64,000 bases of DNA from positions 1 to 64,000 of the forward strand of contig SUWB01000007.1 of the NCBI GenBank assembly GCA_015061745.1. The letters are read 5' to 3'. Below the pieces are notes generated by a model, which made no database searches, was not told where the DNA came from, and saw nothing but the letters and a program-made list of their open reading frames with translations. Below are positions 39,127-49,500 of the stretch, one piece after another. Position 1 is the stretch's first letter. Every line of letters starts with the position of its first letter. The DNA comes from Lentisphaerota bacterium (GTDB lineage Bacteria > Verrucomicrobiota > Lentisphaeria > Victivallales > Victivallaceae). The translations under genes and the position numbers were made by a program.

Positions 39127-40371
39127 ATGAAGAAAGTCGGTATCGGCATTATCGGACTCGGTCCCAGGGCAGAAACTTTGCTGGCATCCCTTGCCGCAAT
39201 GAAAGAGGAAATCAACATTACCGCAATTTGCGATTTGCGGGACGATAAAATCGCTCTTTTGGAACGCAAGATCCTTGAAGCGGGATTCGCTATGCCCTCC
39301 AAATATCACGACTATCGCCAACTGATTGCCGATGCGACCGTAGATGCCGTTCTGATCCCAACATCCTGGAACTCCCACCTCCAGATTGCCGAGGAGTGTA
39401 TGGCAAAGGGCAAATATGCCGGTATCGAAGTCGGCGGAGCAGCTTCTCTTGATGAACTGTGGCACCTGGTTCACGCTGCCGAAAGTACCGGCGTTTCCTG
39501 TATGATGCTGGAAAACTGCTGTTACGGCAGAAATGAACTGCTGGCTCTCAATCTGGCAAGAAAAGGTCTCTTTGGCGAACTGATCCATTGTGAGTGCGGC
39601 TATGAGCACGATCTTTCCTATATGTCCTGGAAAGAACCTGATAAGGAAAGGGCTGTTCACAACCGCTTCCGGAACTGTGATCTGTATCCCACTCACGGCC
39701 TCGGGCCTATGGCCAAGATCCTCAAGATCAACCGGGGCAACCGTTTTATGACGATTTCCTCAACAGCTTCCAAGGCCAGAGGCTTTGCTGCTGCTGCCAA
39801 AGCTCACGGTATGGATGTGGTCTACAACGAAGGGGATATGATCATTTCTGTGATCCGCTGTGCCAATGGCGAAACGATTATGCTGCGTCACTGCATCTCT
39901 CTGCCCCGGCCCTATTCCCGGGACTGCCGGGTGCAGGGGACCAAAGGGCTCTGGCTGGAAGATACCCGGGGAATATTTATTGACGGCATCAGCAAAACAG
40001 AAGAATTGATCGACCCTGCCGGCAATCCCTATTCAGAGCACCACTGGTCTAAAGTCGAGGAGTTTTACGAGGAATACGATCACCCCATCTGGAAAAGTTT
40101 CCGCAAAAAGCAGCTTGGCGGACACGGCGGAATGGACTATCTGGTGCTTTCCGCGTTCGTTGAAGCTGTCCGGGAACGCAAGCCCACCCCCATTGACGTT
40201 TATGACGTTGCCGCCTGGATGAGTGTGACAGCTCTTTCTGAACAATCCATCGCTATGGGCGGTGCTGTGGTGCCTTTCCCTGACTTCACCAACGGCAAGT
40301 GGATCTCAAGAGAACCTGAAGCTCCCTCAAGATGGGCTCTTGATGAGGTTTTTGAGGATCAGTGGCAATGA
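39127..40371 (+). CDS. Gfo/Idh/MocA-family oxidoreductase
   Basis: NAD(P)-dependent sugar or inositol oxidoreductase, 414 residues. The Rossmann start is VGIGIIGLGPRAETLLASLA, followed by AICDLRDDKI, VDAVLIPTSWNSH in place of the usual TPxxxH, and the EVGGAASLDELW stretch matching the EKP region, here with G-G instead of K-P. The lost lysine suggests altered chemistry. The C-terminal domain has the DLYPTHGLGPMAKIL motif. GGAG lies 10 nt before MKKVG; the track start upstream is rejected. It overlaps the first SGNH gene by 4 bp. Confidence 0.87.
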   Translation: MKKVGIGIIGLGPRAETLLASLAAMKEEINITAICDLRDDKIALLERKILEAGFAMPSKYHDYRQLIADATVDAVLIPTSWNSHLQIAEECMAKGKYAGIEVGGAASLDELWHLVHAAESTGVSCMMLENCCYGRNELLALNLARKGLFGELIHCECGYEHDLSYMSWKEPDKERAVHNRFRNCDLYPTHGLGPMAKILKINRGNRFMTISSTASKARGFAAAAKAHGMDVVYNEGDMIISVIRCANGETIMLRHCISLPRPYSRDCRVQGTKGLWLEDTRGIFIDGISKTEELIDPAGNPYSEHHWSKVEEFYEEYDHPIWKSFRKKQLGGHGGMDYLVLSAFVEAVRERKPTPIDVYDVAAWMSVTALSEQSIAMGGAVVPFPDFTNGKWISREPEAPSRWALDEVFEDQWQ

Positions 40372-41420
40372 ACGATTCTGTAAAATGGTATTCTCCTGAC
40401 TCCCCCAGTTTCAGAGTGTCGGGATTTTATTTTCGGCAGCAGGAGATGCCCTTTCGTCGTTTTGAGGAAAATGTATCTCTGCCTCCCCGAGTTGACAGCC
40501 TTGCCTGGCACACCCCGGGGGGACAGGTGGCTTTTATGACGGATTCGTCGTTTATACGACTGAAATATTCTCTTTTGCAGGAATCCCGTTTAGGGGTCAA
40601 TACACGCATTTCTTCCGGCGGATTTGACCTGTATATGGGGACGCCCGGCGGCAAACAGTATTTTTGCGGTGTCACACGAATGAATCTTGCGGATTCTGAA
40701 TTCTGTGTTGACCTGATAAAAGAGCTGCCTCCCGGAATGAAGGCTTTTACCATTTATTTCCCCCTTTACGGTGGGGTCGAACACCTTGAGATCGGTCTTG
40801 AAAAGCAATCTACCGTAAAAAGTCCCGTCCCCTGGCAACAGGAGAACCCGGTCGTCTTTTACGGGACCTCTATCATTCACGGCGGTTGTGCCAACCGGCC
40901 CGGTATGGCCCTGACAAATATATTGACCCGCCGTTTTAACCAGCCTTTTCTCAACTTTGGATTTTCCGGAAATGGCAAAGGGGAACCTGAAGTTTTTGAG
41001 CAGCTGGCGAGGATCAAAGAGCCGCAACTCTACATTCTTGACTATGGCCCCAATGTCGATTCTGAAGCGATGGCGGCCACATTGCCCGGCGGAATCGACA
41101 TATTGCGCAGCAAACACAGAAACACGCCCATTCTGGTGACGGGGAAACTTCACTACGTTTCTGAATATGTACAAACGAATTCTCTTACAGAACGGGTCGT
41201 TGATGTCAAAAAAATGACCGGATTCCAGAAAGCGGAAGTCCTCCGCCGCAGGAAAAAAGGTGATAAAAATATACATTTTGTATCAGGTGACTGGGGCCGT
41301 ACGCCTGATTGGACGGAATTTACCATAGATGGCGTTCACCCCACTGATCTCGGATTTTATATGCACGCCCGATACTGGGAAAAGTGCCTGAAAAAATATT
41401 TGAATGTACAGGAGTTTTGA
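40368..41420 (+). CDS. SGNH/GDSL hydrolase, paralog 1
   Basis: Two-domain esterase of 350 residues: an N-terminal beta-sandwich (about 1-165) and an SGNH domain with block I FYGTSIIHGGCANRPGMA, block II LNFGFSGNGKGE, LYILDYGPNVDSE in the block III position, and VHPTD as the catalytic Asp/His. No signal peptide. The start ATG overlaps the oxidoreductase stop (ATGA). It is about half identical to the next gene, clearly a tandem duplication. Such proteins deacetylate plant or host glycans in other bacteria. Confidence 0.86.
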   Translation: MNDSVKWYSPDSPSFRVSGFYFRQQEMPFRRFEENVSLPPRVDSLAWHTPGGQVAFMTDSSFIRLKYSLLQESRLGVNTRISSGGFDLYMGTPGGKQYFCGVTRMNLADSEFCVDLIKELPPGMKAFTIYFPLYGGVEHLEIGLEKQSTVKSPVPWQQENPVVFYGTSIIHGGCANRPGMALTNILTRRFNQPFLNFGFSGNGKGEPEVFEQLARIKEPQLYILDYGPNVDSEAMAATLPGGIDILRSKHRNTPILVTGKLHYVSEYVQTNSLTERVVDVKKMTGFQKAEVLRRRKKGDKNIHFVSGDWGRTPDWTEFTIDGVHPTDLGFYMHARYWEKCLKKYLNVQEF

Positions 41421-41423
41421 AAA

Positions 41424-42530
41424 ATGAGCAATGACAAAAAACTGGCCGTGGAAAAGTTTGACAGCAATATGGCTGTCAACGAGGTCAAAGAAGAAAAGAT
41501 ACAATGGCTGACTGCCGATGATACCCCCCTGCGGCTTACCGGTTTTTATTTCCGTAAAAAAGGCGACGTGTTCCGGCGATTTCCCCTGGATGACAAGCTG
41601 CCGCCCTCGGTAAACGGTCTTTCCTGGCATACTGCAGGCGGACAGCTTTCCTTTATCAGCAACACCAAGGTCGTCCGGATCAAAGTCGTTTTGGGGCACG
41701 AATCTTTGATGGATCACTGCACAAAGATCGGTTCTTCCGGATTCGATATCTATATGGGCAAACCCGGCGGTCCTCAATATTTCTGCGGTTCAAGCCGCAT
41801 CAAGGTCAACTGTGATTCTTATGAAGTGGATCTTTTCAAAGTTGGACACGCTGAAATGCGGGAATTTACCATCAACTTCCCCCTCTATTGCGGCGTGGAC
41901 TCTTTTGAAATCGGTTTCACCGAAGGTGCTGAAATCAAAGCTCCGACCCCCTGGAAAGATGCGGCTCCCGTGGTTGTTTACGGTACCTCTATCACTCAGG
42001 GCGGATGTGCCAACCGTCCCGGGATGGCTTACACCAATATTATGAGCCGCCGTTTGAACCGCCCCTTCCTCAACTTCGGTTTTTCCGGCAGCGGCAGAGG
42101 TGAAACTTATGTTTTTGAACAACTTGCCAGCATTGAAAATCCGGCAATGTATATTCTTGACTATGAAGCCAATGCCCATAAAGAGGGCATCTTTGCCACC
42201 CTGAGCAATGGTATCGATATCATCAGAGCAAAACATCCTGAAACCCCCATTATGGTCGTTTCGCAGTTCCACTTCAACAGAGAATATATCCAAACCGGAA
42301 GTGTTACTGCCAGAGCCAAGGATGCAGAAGATACCTGGCGTTTTGAAAGGGCTGAGGTCAACCGCCGCCGCAGGGCAGGGGATAAGAATATTTCCTTTGT
42401 TTACGGCGGTTGGAAAAACGAGGAAGATTGGACTGAATTCACTGTTGACGGTGTCCACGCCACTGACCTCGGATTCTATATGTTTGCAAAAATGCTCACA
42501 CCCAAAGTTGCAAAGGTTCTTGATAAATGA
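41424..42530 (+). CDS. SGNH/GDSL hydrolase, paralog 2
   Basis: A 368-residue paralog of the preceding gene with the same domain order: YGTSITQGGCANRPGMAYTN, LNFGFSGSGRGE, MYILDYEANAHKEG and VHATD. It has a 20-residue charged N-terminal extension the first copy lacks. Differences in the N-terminal sandwich, such as KVVRIKVVLGHESLMDHCTK against the copy-1 equivalent, suggest divergent substrate preference. It overlaps prmA by 4 bp. Confidence 0.86.
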   Translation: MSNDKKLAVEKFDSNMAVNEVKEEKIQWLTADDTPLRLTGFYFRKKGDVFRRFPLDDKLPPSVNGLSWHTAGGQLSFISNTKVVRIKVVLGHESLMDHCTKIGSSGFDIYMGKPGGPQYFCGSSRIKVNCDSYEVDLFKVGHAEMREFTINFPLYCGVDSFEIGFTEGAEIKAPTPWKDAAPVVVYGTSITQGGCANRPGMAYTNIMSRRLNRPFLNFGFSGSGRGETYVFEQLASIENPAMYILDYEANAHKEGIFATLSNGIDIIRAKHPETPIMVVSQFHFNREYIQTGSVTARAKDAEDTWRFERAEVNRRRRAGDKNISFVYGGWKNEEDWTEFTVDGVHATDLGFYMFAKMLTPKVAKVLDK

Positions 42531-43417: not shown

Positions 43418-44982
<1,565 letters not shown>

Positions 44983-45006
44983 TTATAGTGTTCCGTTATG
45001 CAAAAA

Positions 45007-45552
45007 TCAGAGTTGAACGAACATTCCTCTGTAAAGTTCATCTACTTTAGAACCAAGGCCTGCCGCTTCAGCGATCTTGGCGGCAAAGGCAAAAACAGCT
45101 CCCGGGCCTTTACCGGTGACAACATTGCCTTCCCGTTCAGCCAAAGCATCGGTGTAGTGCAAGTTGCCGAGGTAACTGTCAAAGCCGGGGTACATCGTAA
45201 ATCTGTTGTCGGTCAGGACTCCTGCTTTGGCAAGAACAATGGGCGCAGCACAAATGGCTGCAGTTATCTTGCCGTTGATATGCATATCTTTGATCCAGCG
45301 GATGACCAGATCGGACTCAAGCAAATTGGTGGAACCGGGCAAACCGCCGGGCAGAATGACTCCGTCATAATCAGAAACAGACAAATCTGCAAGTTTGTGA
45401 TGAGCCGCAATGGTAAAGCTATGGGAGCCTGTCGTTTTGATGGAATCAAGTCCGGCAAATGTGACAGTTATCCCGAGCCGGGCAAGGACATCAGCAGTAC
45501 CGATGGCTTCAAGTTCTTCAAAACCGGGGGCAAGGATCATAACAAGATTCAT
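45007..45552 (-). CDS. DJ-1/PfpI-family protein
   Basis: A 181-residue flavodoxin-like protein. The nucleophile cysteine lies in the elbow AAICAAPIVLAKAG (about residue 100) and the supporting glutamate in LAPGFEELEAIG (about 15), as in DJ-1/YajL/ThiJ. It may act in protection from reactive carbonyls or as a small hydrolase. AAGGAG precedes the start. It lies 27 bp after the fumarase beta gene and before tgt. Confidence 0.9.
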   Translation of the reverse strand: MNLVMILAPGFEELEAIGTADVLARLGITVTFAGLDSIKTTGSHSFTIAAHHKLADLSVSDYDGVILPGGLPGSTNLLESDLVIRWIKDMHINGKITAAICAAPIVLAKAGVLTDNRFTMYPGFDSYLGNLHYTDALAEREGNVVTGKGPGAVFAFAAKIAEAAGLGSKVDELYRGMFVQL

Positions 45553-45578: not shown

Positions 45579-46106
45579 TCACTCGTAAAGGGAATTTCCT
45601 TCGGCATCAATAGCGACGACGAGGGGGAAATCTTCAACGTAAAGTTTGTGGATCGCCTCAGTTCCCAATTCAGGAAACGCAATAACTTCGCAAGATTTGA
45701 TTTTTCTGGCGATCAAAGCTCCGGCACCGCCCGTAGCTCCGAAATAAACGGCACCAAAACGCTTCATTGCATCGACGACAGCAGCGGAACGCCCCCCTTT
45801 GCCGATCATACCGGTAAGACCGCACTTTTCAATGAGGATCGGGGAATAGGCATCCATACGTCCGCTGGTGGTGGGACCGGCACTGCCGATGGGACGGCCG
45901 GGAGGCGCAGGACAGGGCCCTACAAAATAGATGATCTGATCTTTCAGCTCCACAGGGAGCTCTTTTCCTGCTTCAAGAAGTGCCACAAGTTTTTTATGTG
46001 CGGCATCCCGACCGGTCCAGATAATGCCGGTAAGCCGGACTTCATCACCGGCCTTCAGGGTACGGGCATCTGCGGCAGTCAACGGGGTCGTAAGCTCTTT
46101 TATCAT
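45579..46106 (-). CDS. fumB: class I fumarate hydratase, beta subunit
   Basis: C-terminal half of a two-subunit class I fumarase (or L-tartrate dehydratase-type hydro-lyase), 175 residues. Visible: LTAADARTLKAGDEVRLTGI, VGPCPAPPGRPIGSAGPTTS (substrate loop), GRMDAY and GKGGRS. It interconverts fumarate and malate in the TCA or reductive branch. It overlaps the alpha subunit by 4 bp, fixing a 1:1 pair. Fumarase is more likely than tartrate dehydratase, but the sequence alone does not exclude the latter. Confidence 0.9.
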   Translation of the reverse strand: MIKELTTPLTAADARTLKAGDEVRLTGIIWTGRDAAHKKLVALLEAGKELPVELKDQIIYFVGPCPAPPGRPIGSAGPTTSGRMDAYSPILIEKCGLTGMIGKGGRSAAVVDAMKRFGAVYFGATGGAGALIARKIKSCEVIAFPELGTEAIHKLYVEDFPLVVAIDAEGNSLYE

Positions 46107-46951
46107 AAGGTCACCTCAGCGTGTCTTGCCGCATGGCAGTTGAGATTCACTGAAACAGGCAGTGAAGCAATGTGGCAGGGGAAATATTCAATGTGAACGG
46201 CAAGAGCGGTGATGTCACCGCCAAGCCCCTGAGAACCGACGCCGGTTGCATTGATCTTTTCAAGGATCTCCGCTTCAAGTTCAGCGTAACGGGGATCCGG
46301 ATTGGGGGTTCCGACTTTACGCAGCAACGCTTTTTTGGCGATCTGGGCACATTTTTCAAAAGTACCGCCGATACCGACACCGACAATAACAGGCGGGCAG
46401 GGATTGCCGCCGGCGTTTTTGACACTGTTGACCACAAAATCTACCACAGCGGCTCTGCCGTCAGAGGGCTTCATCATCTTGAGGGCACTCATATTTTCAG
46501 ATCCGCCTCCTTTGGGAGCGAGAACGATTCTGACAGAATCCCCGGGGACAGGAGTGAAATGAATGACGGCAGGCGTGTTATCTTTGGTGTTTTTACGTTC
46601 AAAGAGAGGTTCTTCCACAATGGATTTACGCAAATAATATCTTGCATAGCCCTCTCTGACACCGGCATTAATCGCCGCAGTGATCCCTTCGCCGTCCACC
46701 TGAACATTTTCACCGTATTCAACAAAGAACACGGCAAAACCGGTATCCTGACAAAGGGGCATATTTTCAGTAACGGCTATTTCCGCATTTTCCAGATATT
46801 GATTGAAAAAACTTTTTGCCAGAGGCCGGGTTTCCTTTGCTGCACAACTGCGCAGAGACTCCAACACATCTGCCGGCAGTTTCACTGCTGCTTCGCCGCA
46901 AAGGCGGCTCACAGCATCGACGACCTCCTGAAATGGAATGATTCTTTTCAT
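46103..46951 (-). CDS. fumA: class I fumarate hydratase, alpha subunit
   Basis: N-terminal, iron-sulfur half of the two-subunit enzyme, 282 residues. The three [4Fe-4S] cysteines are likely those in MPLCQDTGFAVFF, NAGGNPCPPVIVGVGIGG and an N-terminal or distal Cys; the GGGSENMS loop and GLGGDITALAVHIEYFPCHI are typical. Such oxygen-sensitive fumarases suit an anaerobe. One of the three CATG sites in the window lies near its C-terminus (Cys-His-Ala). It follows the Na/Pi gene by 16 bp. Confidence 0.92.
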   Translation of the reverse strand: MKRIIPFQEVVDAVSRLCGEAAVKLPADVLESLRSCAAKETRPLAKSFFNQYLENAEIAVTENMPLCQDTGFAVFFVEYGENVQVDGEGITAAINAGVREGYARYYLRKSIVEEPLFERKNTKDNTPAVIHFTPVPGDSVRIVLAPKGGGSENMSALKMMKPSDGRAAVVDFVVNSVKNAGGNPCPPVIVGVGIGGTFEKCAQIAKKALLRKVGTPNPDPRYAELEAEILEKINATGVGSQGLGGDITALAVHIEYFPCHIASLPVSVNLNCHAARHAEVTL

Positions 46952-46967: not shown

Positions 46968-49385
46968 TTACAAATTGACATAATGTTTTCTGATTTCCGG
47001 TGAACGCTCTGCAATATTGGCCAAACGGTCGGCGATCTTGACGATCTCACCCAGCAGCTCAATGAAAATGACACCGCAGGCTGCCGTACAGGAACCTTTG
47101 CGGAGACGTTCAATGTGTTCTGCCTCAAATTCGTCAGCCAAAGCGTGGATCTTATTGAGACGCTGTTCCAGTATAACTGAAGATATCTGATCTTTTCCGG
47201 CAAGTCCTGCGACTACCTGTTCAGAGAGTTCTTCCACGTGTTTCCAGAGTTTTTTGACCTCTTTTCTGGCGGTTTCAGAAAGTTTTTTATCCTGTTTGAC
47301 CATTCTGTCGTTAAGCTGCAGTATGATTTCACAGTGGTCGGCGATCCTTTCGGCGTCATTGGTACAGTGCATCAGCAGAGGGATCATCTGGGCCTGAGGC
47401 TCCACCAGACGTTTTCTGGTCAGCTGCACCAGATAAGCTGTCACATCGGACTGCATCTGGTCGATATGGCTTTCTTCTTCAGCAAGCTGCTCATACTTTT
47501 TTTCATCCACATCCGCAGAAAGAAAGTGGTCATTAACGGCCCGGTTCACCATACTCCAGGCACCACCGACCATTTCTTCAAGGGCTTTGGAAGTAAGTTT
47601 CAAAGCGACAGAAGGCGTGTTCAGCAAAGCCGGTTCCAGCAGGGTCGTTCTCACTTCATCCCGAAGGGGGATCAGCCAGGTACAGAGAGAAGCAAACTGC
47701 TTGGCCAAAGGCAGCAAAAGCAACGCAACGGCAATGTTGAAGATCGTGTGAAACATTGCAATGTGCCGTTCCAGATTCTGAGGAACTTCGGCAAATGCAT
47801 TACCGGGAGTAAAAGAATTGACAAGATAAAGGAAAGAAGGATATCCTTTGTAAGGAATGTAACAAATTGCAACAACGATAACGGCTCCAAGCACATTAAA
47901 AAGCGTATGTGCAAGAGCAGCCTGCTTGGCAACCCGGTTGGCATTGAGAGCTCCCAATTGAGCGGTAACAGTTGTTCCGATATTGGAACCGATCAGCAGC
48001 GGAACTGCAGTGTAAAAGTTCACCAGCTGTCCCGCCGCAAGAGCGAGGACGATTCCTGTAAATGCGGAGCTGGACTGCAATATCATCGTCATAACAATTC
48101 CTATGATCGCAGCACCAATAACTGATCCCAAAGGCATCAGAGAACTGCCATTGACGGGAGCACAATCAAAGAGACTGAAAAACATTCTGAAAGAGGACAT
48201 TTCACCCAGCAATTTCAGTTCACTGCTCATCATCTGCATACCAAAGAAAAGCAAACCGAACCCCAGCAATACAGTTCCCCAGGCATTGACGGTACGTTTC
48301 TTACTCAATGTCAGAAAGAATCCCACTGCAATACAGGGCAACGCCAGTCCGGAAAGATTGAAAGAGATGATCTGGGCCGTGATCGTCGTACCGATGTTGG
48401 CTCCGAAAATGATTCCCATTGACTGAACAAGGGTCAAAAGTCCGGCATTGATAAAACCGATGACCATAACAGTGGTCGCAGAGCTGGACTGAATAATTGC
48501 GGTAACGACCGTTCCGGCAAGCAAGGCGGAAACACGGTTGCTGGTGAAATAGGAAAGTATTTTACGCATATTTTCACCGGCAGCCAACCTGATCCCGTCA
48601 CTCATCATACACATACCCAGCAGAAAGAATGCAAGACCGCCCGTTACACAAAGAATGACTGACCACAAGTCAATAGCCTGAAGCTCAATCTTGATGTCAG
48701 AAAACCTGATTTCATCTGCGGCATTCCCTGCCGAAACAAGAATATTATAGCACCCTGTTTTTTTCCCCATCTTAACAAAGGTGGAGGCAATACCTTTGCT
48801 GTCTGTAACTGCTTGAGGAGTCATTATCTGGGCAGTGGGCTCCACACCTTCAACCGTATTGGCAAAACGGAACCGGACGGGGATGCCAGGGACACCTTTA
48901 CCGTGACGGGTGATCTTGACAACAAGGGGGGCATCAGAGGTGCTGCCGGTAAAATATTCAGCATTGGCCCCACTTATTTCAAGACCTGAAAACACTCTGG
49001 TCGTCAATTTGTGCTCCTCTGCCCCCAGAGGGACGATTTCGATCAGCTGCTCACCGATCGTTTCAGGAAATGTCAATTTGGCTTCGGCCATACCGCCTGC
49101 ATCAGCAACCGCAGTTACGGGAGTGATCTTGATTTTTGCGCTGTCTGGACTCTTGAAAAGGACTTTTGTCCCGGGAACAGGCAGCAAAGAGGATTTTCCA
49201 AAGAGATTCCGGGGGCTTTGTCCTGTTATGTGCACCCGCAATGGAACTGACATCTTGCCGTCCGGCTGAAGACATTGCTCATTGCCGCCGACGATTTTGA
49301 CCTGAGAGATCTTGTCTGCACTGTTTTTGCCGCATCCTGATACGAATATCAGCAACATCAGCAGGAGAAAATAGAAATAACGCAT
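46968..49385 (-). CDS. lipoprotein-Ig-Na/Pi cotransporter-PhoU fusion
   Basis: An 805-residue fusion. It starts with a lipoprotein signal (LIFVSGC, Cys about 18), followed by about 210 residues of two invasin-type Ig-like domains (ADAGGMAEAKLTFPETIGEQ; TDSKGIASTFVKMGKKTGCY). Residues 235-570 are a Na/Pi cotransporter core with the paired QSSSATT and QSSSAFTG repeats. The end (about 600-790) is a PhoU-like helical bundle. Cores with PhoU tails (NptA/YjbB type) are known; Ig domains in front with a lipobox are not usual. If lipidated, the N-terminus would be periplasmic. Likely exports or imports phosphate. GAGG precedes the start. Confidence 0.88.
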   Translation of the reverse strand: MRYFYFLLLMLLIFVSGCGKNSADKISQVKIVGGNEQCLQPDGKMSVPLRVHITGQSPRNLFGKSSLLPVPGTKVLFKSPDSAKIKITPVTAVADAGGMAEAKLTFPETIGEQLIEIVPLGAEEHKLTTRVFSGLEISGANAEYFTGSTSDAPLVVKITRHGKGVPGIPVRFRFANTVEGVEPTAQIMTPQAVTDSKGIASTFVKMGKKTGCYNILVSAGNAADEIRFSDIKIELQAIDLWSVILCVTGGLAFFLLGMCMMSDGIRLAAGENMRKILSYFTSNRVSALLAGTVVTAIIQSSSATTVMVIGFINAGLLTLVQSMGIIFGANIGTTITAQIISFNLSGLALPCIAVGFFLTLSKKRTVNAWGTVLLGFGLLFFGMQMMSSELKLLGEMSSFRMFFSLFDCAPVNGSSLMPLGSVIGAAIIGIVMTMILQSSSAFTGIVLALAAGQLVNFYTAVPLLIGSNIGTTVTAQLGALNANRVAKQAALAHTLFNVLGAVIVVAICYIPYKGYPSFLYLVNSFTPGNAFAEVPQNLERHIAMFHTIFNIAVALLLLPLAKQFASLCTWLIPLRDEVRTTLLEPALLNTPSVALKLTSKALEEMVGGAWSMVNRAVNDHFLSADVDEKKYEQLAEEESHIDQMQSDVTAYLVQLTRKRLVEPQAQMIPLLMHCTNDAERIADHCEIILQLNDRMVKQDKKLSETARKEVKKLWKHVEELSEQVVAGLAGKDQISSVILEQRLNKIHALADEFEAEHIERLRKGSCTAACGVIFIELLGEIVKIADRLANIAERSPEIRKHYVNL

Positions 49386-49471
49386 AACGCCTCAGAGTTT
49401 AAGAATTGACACTTGCTTTTTACTGACTCCCCCGGCATGCCGGAAAGTTTTACAGAAAAATTCCTGTGCTT

Positions 49472-49500
49472 AATATAGCACAGATTTCCGCTTTTTTCAA
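49472..49500 (-). promoter_or_regulatory. promoter of the Na/Pi-fumarase-tgt operon (TTGAAA-N17-TATATT)
   Basis: Minus-strand -35 TTGAAA, which overlaps the stop codon of the ROK gene, and -10 TATATT with 17 nt between. The leader of about 80 nt contains CCGGCATGCCGG, a 12-bp palindrome and one of only three CATG sites. Confidence 0.72.

Follow-up and report, generated by a model that had tools for sequence, protein, structure and literature searches.

Staphylococcus aureus NptA imports phosphate (Pi), and its PhoU domain affects both import and PhoPR activity (PMC13170248), while in expression tests the Salmonella counterpart of E. coli YjbB behaves as an exporter of Pi (PMC11389368). In the animal NaPi-II proteins, the N and C termini are both cytoplasmic, and the elevator model puts TM1b in the presumed static oligomerization interface (PMC6325988). 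Here, we analyzed a gene from a 64,000-nucleotide stretch of the draft genome of a gut bacterium of the Lentisphaerota (contig SUWB01000007.1, positions 1 to 64,000, hereafter the window), for which the original prediction, made from the sequence alone, was a fusion of a lipobox and two Ig-like domains to a Na/Pi cotransporter core with a PhoU-like tail. A search of the literature retrieved no description of such an Ig-NptA-PhoU architecture.

Domain layout, topology, and gene neighborhood

The gene is a single intact open reading frame (window 46968 to 49385, minus strand) of 805 amino acids without internal stops, with an ATG start and a GAGG motif four bases upstream. It encodes, from the N terminus and all on the minus strand, a lipoprotein signal peptide (residues 1 to 18, 49332 to 49385), two tandem Ig-like domains (residues 28 to 134 and 135 to 238, 48672 to 49304), an NptA-type Na/Pi cotransporter core (residues 243 to 573, 47667 to 48659), and a PhoU tail with two PhoU repeats (residues ca. 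596 to 794, 47004 to 47600). The protein matched Na_Pi_cotrans (PF02690, 2e-61) in two stretches, TIGR00704 with 233.3 bits (cutoff of 210.1), and NF037997 with 199.1 bits (cutoff of 50), and both QSSS motifs are intact, one in each inverted repeat (residues 299 to 302 and 436 to 439). PhoU (PF01895) was also found in two stretches (4.9e-12, 46.5 bits against a cutoff of 23.5), TIGR02135 gave a partial match on the tail, and the family profile of this tail matched solved PhoU proteins. The AlphaFold model of the whole protein, built from a 19-sequence alignment (mean pLDDT of 82), contained two beta-sandwich domains (ca. 28 to 238), a helical core, and a PhoU bundle, and the layout originally read from the sequence was borne out in all four of its parts.

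The lipobox reads ...LIFVSGC(18)GKNS, with VSGC as the motif and Cys18 as the putative lipidated residue. Of 46 two-Ig sequences, 44 have this Cys in register, and one of the remaining two is displaced in the alignment but likewise ends in GC, i.e., the residue is kept in all but one of the two-Ig homologs examined. A two-Ig form (locus L018) has lost the lipobox Cys and apparently has a plain membrane anchor instead.

When the Ig part was modeled alone, pLDDT rose to 91, and a Foldseek search of the PDB retrieved tandem Ig stalks, among them intimin, invasin, and FdeC (E value of 1.4e-8 for intimin D0-D1). The Big_1 profile (PF02369) was matched in 19 of 19 homologs tested; in the window protein, it remained below its curated cutoff of 34.9 bits (1.2e-4, 22.6 bits with the whole protein and 31.3 bits with the Ig segment), so we refer to these domains as Big_1-like rather than Big_1. 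In the AlphaFold model, the last strand of the second Ig domain (226 to 238) leads directly into a helix (240 to 282) without a flexible linker, and the spacing between this domain and TM1 is identical in 32 of the 46 sequences. A disulfide between Cys38 of the Ig part and Cys408 in a loop was considered and discarded, since Cys408 also appears in 16 short forms devoid of Ig domains and in 10 two-Ig forms that have no Cys38.

Taking the helices from the AlphaFold model and combining them with loop charges, the core is predicted to consist of seven membrane-spanning helices and two re-entrant QSSS hairpins. If the N terminus is assumed to be outside, the inside loops of 46 sequences carry 6.4 K+R versus 0.9 D+E, and the outside loops ca. 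4.4 K+R versus 4.7 D+E. In addition, three short relatives have signal-peptide-like N termini immediately before TM1. These two observations and the conservation of the lipobox agree with the extracytoplasmic placement of the Ig pair that had been proposed, and an outside N terminus followed by seven spans would leave PhoU in the cytoplasm. For bacterial NptA-type proteins such as the window protein, the N terminus is predicted to be outside, whereas an inside N terminus is reported for animal SLC34/NaPi-II (PDB 9z60); nonetheless, the first repeat of one aligns in line with that of the other.

A terminator-like hairpin (49463 to 49484, minus strand), recognized solely as a pattern match, separates the transporter gene from the ROK kinase gene upstream. 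Directly downstream, after a gap of 16 bp, come the class I fumarase alpha and beta genes (45579 to 46951), and then a DJ-1 family gene and tgt (43864 to 45552), all on the same strand. It is thus plausible from the gene order that the transporter gene heads an operon, as had been suggested, although beyond the closest relative only the fumarase part of this arrangement is kept: the alpha and beta genes adjoin the transporter in the window and at seven related loci, while the link to DJ-1 and tgt appeared, among loci long enough to show it, in the closest relative alone. Fumarase was the only recurring link, and there was no phosphate gene among the transporter neighbors tested. Elsewhere in the window, two adjacent and similar open reading frames (40362 to 41420 and 41424 to 42530, plus strand) have stretches such as GGCANRPGMA.TNI in common and are apparent tandem duplicates.

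Distribution and history of the Ig pair

Matches to the protein were found in 36 of 40 related genomes, with full-length two-Ig copies at 40 to 78% identity; the value of 78% corresponds to two genomes of the same genus, and many more orthologs fall at 40 to 52%. The same fusion, open through the junction, is present in dozens of independent genomes, which excludes the possibility that a sequence or assembly error had joined a lipoprotein gene to a transporter gene. Using the Ig part as the sole query, we found matches in 88 of the 388 genomes of the phylum, and nearly all the strong ones were located inside open frames of ca. 800 to 900 amino acids, in frame with the transporter, so the ectodomain rarely occurs apart from it. 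The exceptions were mostly shorter frames, several of them cut by contig ends, together with a few weak matches in giant repeat proteins. A contig search recovered the Ig part in records of Kiritimatiellota, Planctomycetota, Hydrogenedentota, and Wallbacteria as well. The fusion is therefore largely common within the Lentisphaeria and reaches four other phyla, and a common architecture had been named along with the original prediction as evidence against it.

Some variants were seen at the edges of this distribution. One Hydrogenedentota locus harbors two two-Ig transporter genes. In Fermentibacterota/Aegiribacteria (three loci) and some Bacteroidales (two loci), the N terminus is shorter, apparently with a single Ig-like domain and no lipobox, and possibly represents a separate acquisition.

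On an unrooted tree built from the core only (97 sequences, by a quick method), 2 changes were enough to account for the two-Ig label, against a mean of 32.5 after shuffling, and again 2 when S. aureus NptA and YjbB were added. Nested inside the two-Ig forms were 16 short forms without Ig domains, from Lentisphaerota and Verrucomicrobiota records, i.e., a whole clade that retains the transporter. The simplest reading would be one gain of the Ig pair before its spread over these groups and one clean loss, although the count on an unrooted tree cannot by itself tell gain from loss. The ectodomain has apparently been gained and lost as a unit, and the presence of long and short forms in one genus provides a natural comparison for the role of the outer part. 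Genomes with the short form often have two copies in tandem (loci L068 and L076; genomes G001, G008, G011, and G014), and one copy in G001 (C96:8492-10168) has two in-frame TAA stops.

Between close orthologs, dN/dS was 0.14 to 0.28 for the Ig domains, 0.03 to 0.05 for the core, and 0.05 to 0.08 for PhoU, which are rough figures because most of the comparisons approach saturation at synonymous sites. By these estimates, the Ig part appears to be under purifying selection, yet evolves faster than the core.

Phosphate supply and the role of the Ig pair

The window protein is closer to S. aureus NptA (30.9% identity over residues 233 to 792, 239 bits) than to E. coli YjbB (23% identity, 122 bits), and in the alignment the QSSS motifs are intact in NptA and degenerate in YjbB (QSSN and YSSL). 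Profile searches of the host draft genome for PHO4/Pit, PhoU, Na_Pi_cotrans, PstC, and PstB detected no PHO4/Pit and, apart from the transporter gene, nothing with PhoU or Na_Pi_cotrans. The draft is 91.55% complete and could conceal a missed Pst or Pit, and Pi may have other routes, such as organophosphate antiporters or divergent carriers; the best match to PstC had 31 bits against a cutoff of 196, and that to PstB had 246 against 343. Across 24 genomes of the genus, including the host, 23 carry the transporter in its long or short form (the exception, G004, is 54% complete), PstC passed the cutoff only in G023, and PHO4 was found in none. Since the host has no recognizable Pst, Pit, or stand-alone PhoU and the transporter is present in 23 of the 24 genomes, the two-Ig NptA-PhoU protein is probably its main Pi importer. 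The genus thus seems to manage with neither Pst nor Pit and may rely on a single NptA-PhoU protein to obtain phosphate. In several relatives (e.g., G029, G032, and G036), the two-Ig form occurs alongside Pst or Pit and is not always the sole importer. A PhoB/PhoR-like response regulator and kinase pair was located on contig 25 (G000:C25:21878-24124), with scores below the curated cutoffs.

The core family and the PhoU-like tail are also common to YjbB, and YjbB expression gives Pi export in Salmonella (PMC11389368), which would fit an exporter or overflow valve carrying the Ig part as a passive addition. We regard this as unlikely, given the distance from YjbB in sequence, the degeneration of its QSSS motifs, and the failure to find another Pi importer in most of the genus. 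The greater proximity to NptA and the lack of detectable Pst or Pit in the host and most of its genus make import the likelier direction, even if the drafts are incomplete.

On balance, we consider it probable that this protein is an NptA-type Na+-driven Pi importer with a cytoplasmic PhoU tail, in which the lipid-anchored Ig pair acts as a periplasmic scaffold or dock. In an ancestor, an NptA-type importer that already had the usual PhoU tail would have acquired a lipoprotein signal together with two Ig domains of the Big_1-like kind. The N terminus would be exported, cleaved, and lipidated, and the Ig pair, with one end fixed by the lipid and the other by TM1, would stay on the periplasmic side of the inner membrane. 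An elevator-type movement of the core would bring Na+ and Pi into the cell, and PhoU, by analogy with S. aureus NptA, would restrain the core when cytoplasmic Pi is high. Because it is joined to TM1, located on the presumed oligomerization side in the NaPi-II model, the Ig pair would sit on the transporter's static part as a rigid scaffold or dock, contributing to stability, oligomerization, or interactions within the envelope with other proteins. We found neither a partner nor an oligomer nor a docking target for it.

The original prediction had instead suggested that the Ig part could bind cell wall or glycan, or sense phosphate and gate transport, an idea for which we found no positive support. 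In this view, the pair would be a ligand-binding or sensing module for Pi, a glycan, or a wall component that alters transport activity, which would suit its predicted periplasmic position, the fact that almost every genome keeps it strictly in frame with the transporter, the apparent purifying selection, and the conservation of charge at a few sites (position 130, basic in a fraction of 0.89; positions 95, 112, and 143, acidic in 0.89 to 0.93). However, the conserved positions are mostly Gly, Pro, Val, Phe, and hydrophobic residues of the Big_1 fold, with D95 and D195 belonging to a common TD..G motif, and look structural; besides, the structural matches are repeat stalk domains, TM1, where the pair is attached, is presumed to belong to the part of an elevator transporter that stays static, and the pair has been lost once with the transporter kept, so a ligand-binding or sensing role appears improbable. 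The clean loss in one clade and the fast evolution relative to the core would also be expected if the N-terminal part were a neutral remnant, derived from a secreted Ig module of a generic kind that was acquired a single time and retained because it is harmless; its retention, together with an intact lipobox, in records from five phyla and the dN/dS of 0.14 to 0.28 make this less likely still. With moderate confidence, we prefer a role as scaffold or dock to one in Pi sensing or gating on account of the fold-type conserved residues, the rigid join to TM1 on the static side, and the persistence of the transporter where the Ig pair was lost. A more ambitious proposal, which we find doubtful, is that, in a genus of gut bacteria, the lipid-anchored ectodomain serves the main Pi importer as a module for control or docking in the periplasm; if true, one polypeptide would combine the transporter with inner PhoU control and with an input or tether on the outside.

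Comparison with known transporters and Ig stalks

Among described proteins, S. aureus NptA shares the two Na_Pi_cotrans repeats, the intact QSSS motifs, and the C-terminal PhoU domain (PMC13170248) but begins at TM1, without signal peptide, lipobox, or Ig domains. The animal SLC34/NaPi-II proteins (solved as SLC34A2a, 9z60) have homologous repeats and QSSS motifs but lack PhoU and Ig domains, and both of their termini are cytoplasmic (PMC6325988), whereas the N terminus is predicted to be outside here. E. coli YjbB, a putative Pi exporter, is similar in having a core and a PhoU-like tail overall and differs in its low identity (23%), degenerate QSSS motifs, and lack of an ectodomain. The Ig domains of the invasin-intimin type share the fold and the Big_1 sequence motif with the window protein; there, they form adhesin stalks at the outer surface, while here the pair sits between a putative lipid anchor and a polytopic transporter. 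A lipobox ahead of a multi-span membrane protein is known from polytopic lipoproteins, e.g., Gram-positive YidC/SpoIIIJ and CyoA, which belong to families unrelated to NptA. In the window protein, a bacterial transporter of the SLC34 type carries an ectodomain that is conserved: the NptA-PhoU kind of transporter is known, and what is new is the added, putatively lipid-anchored ectodomain.
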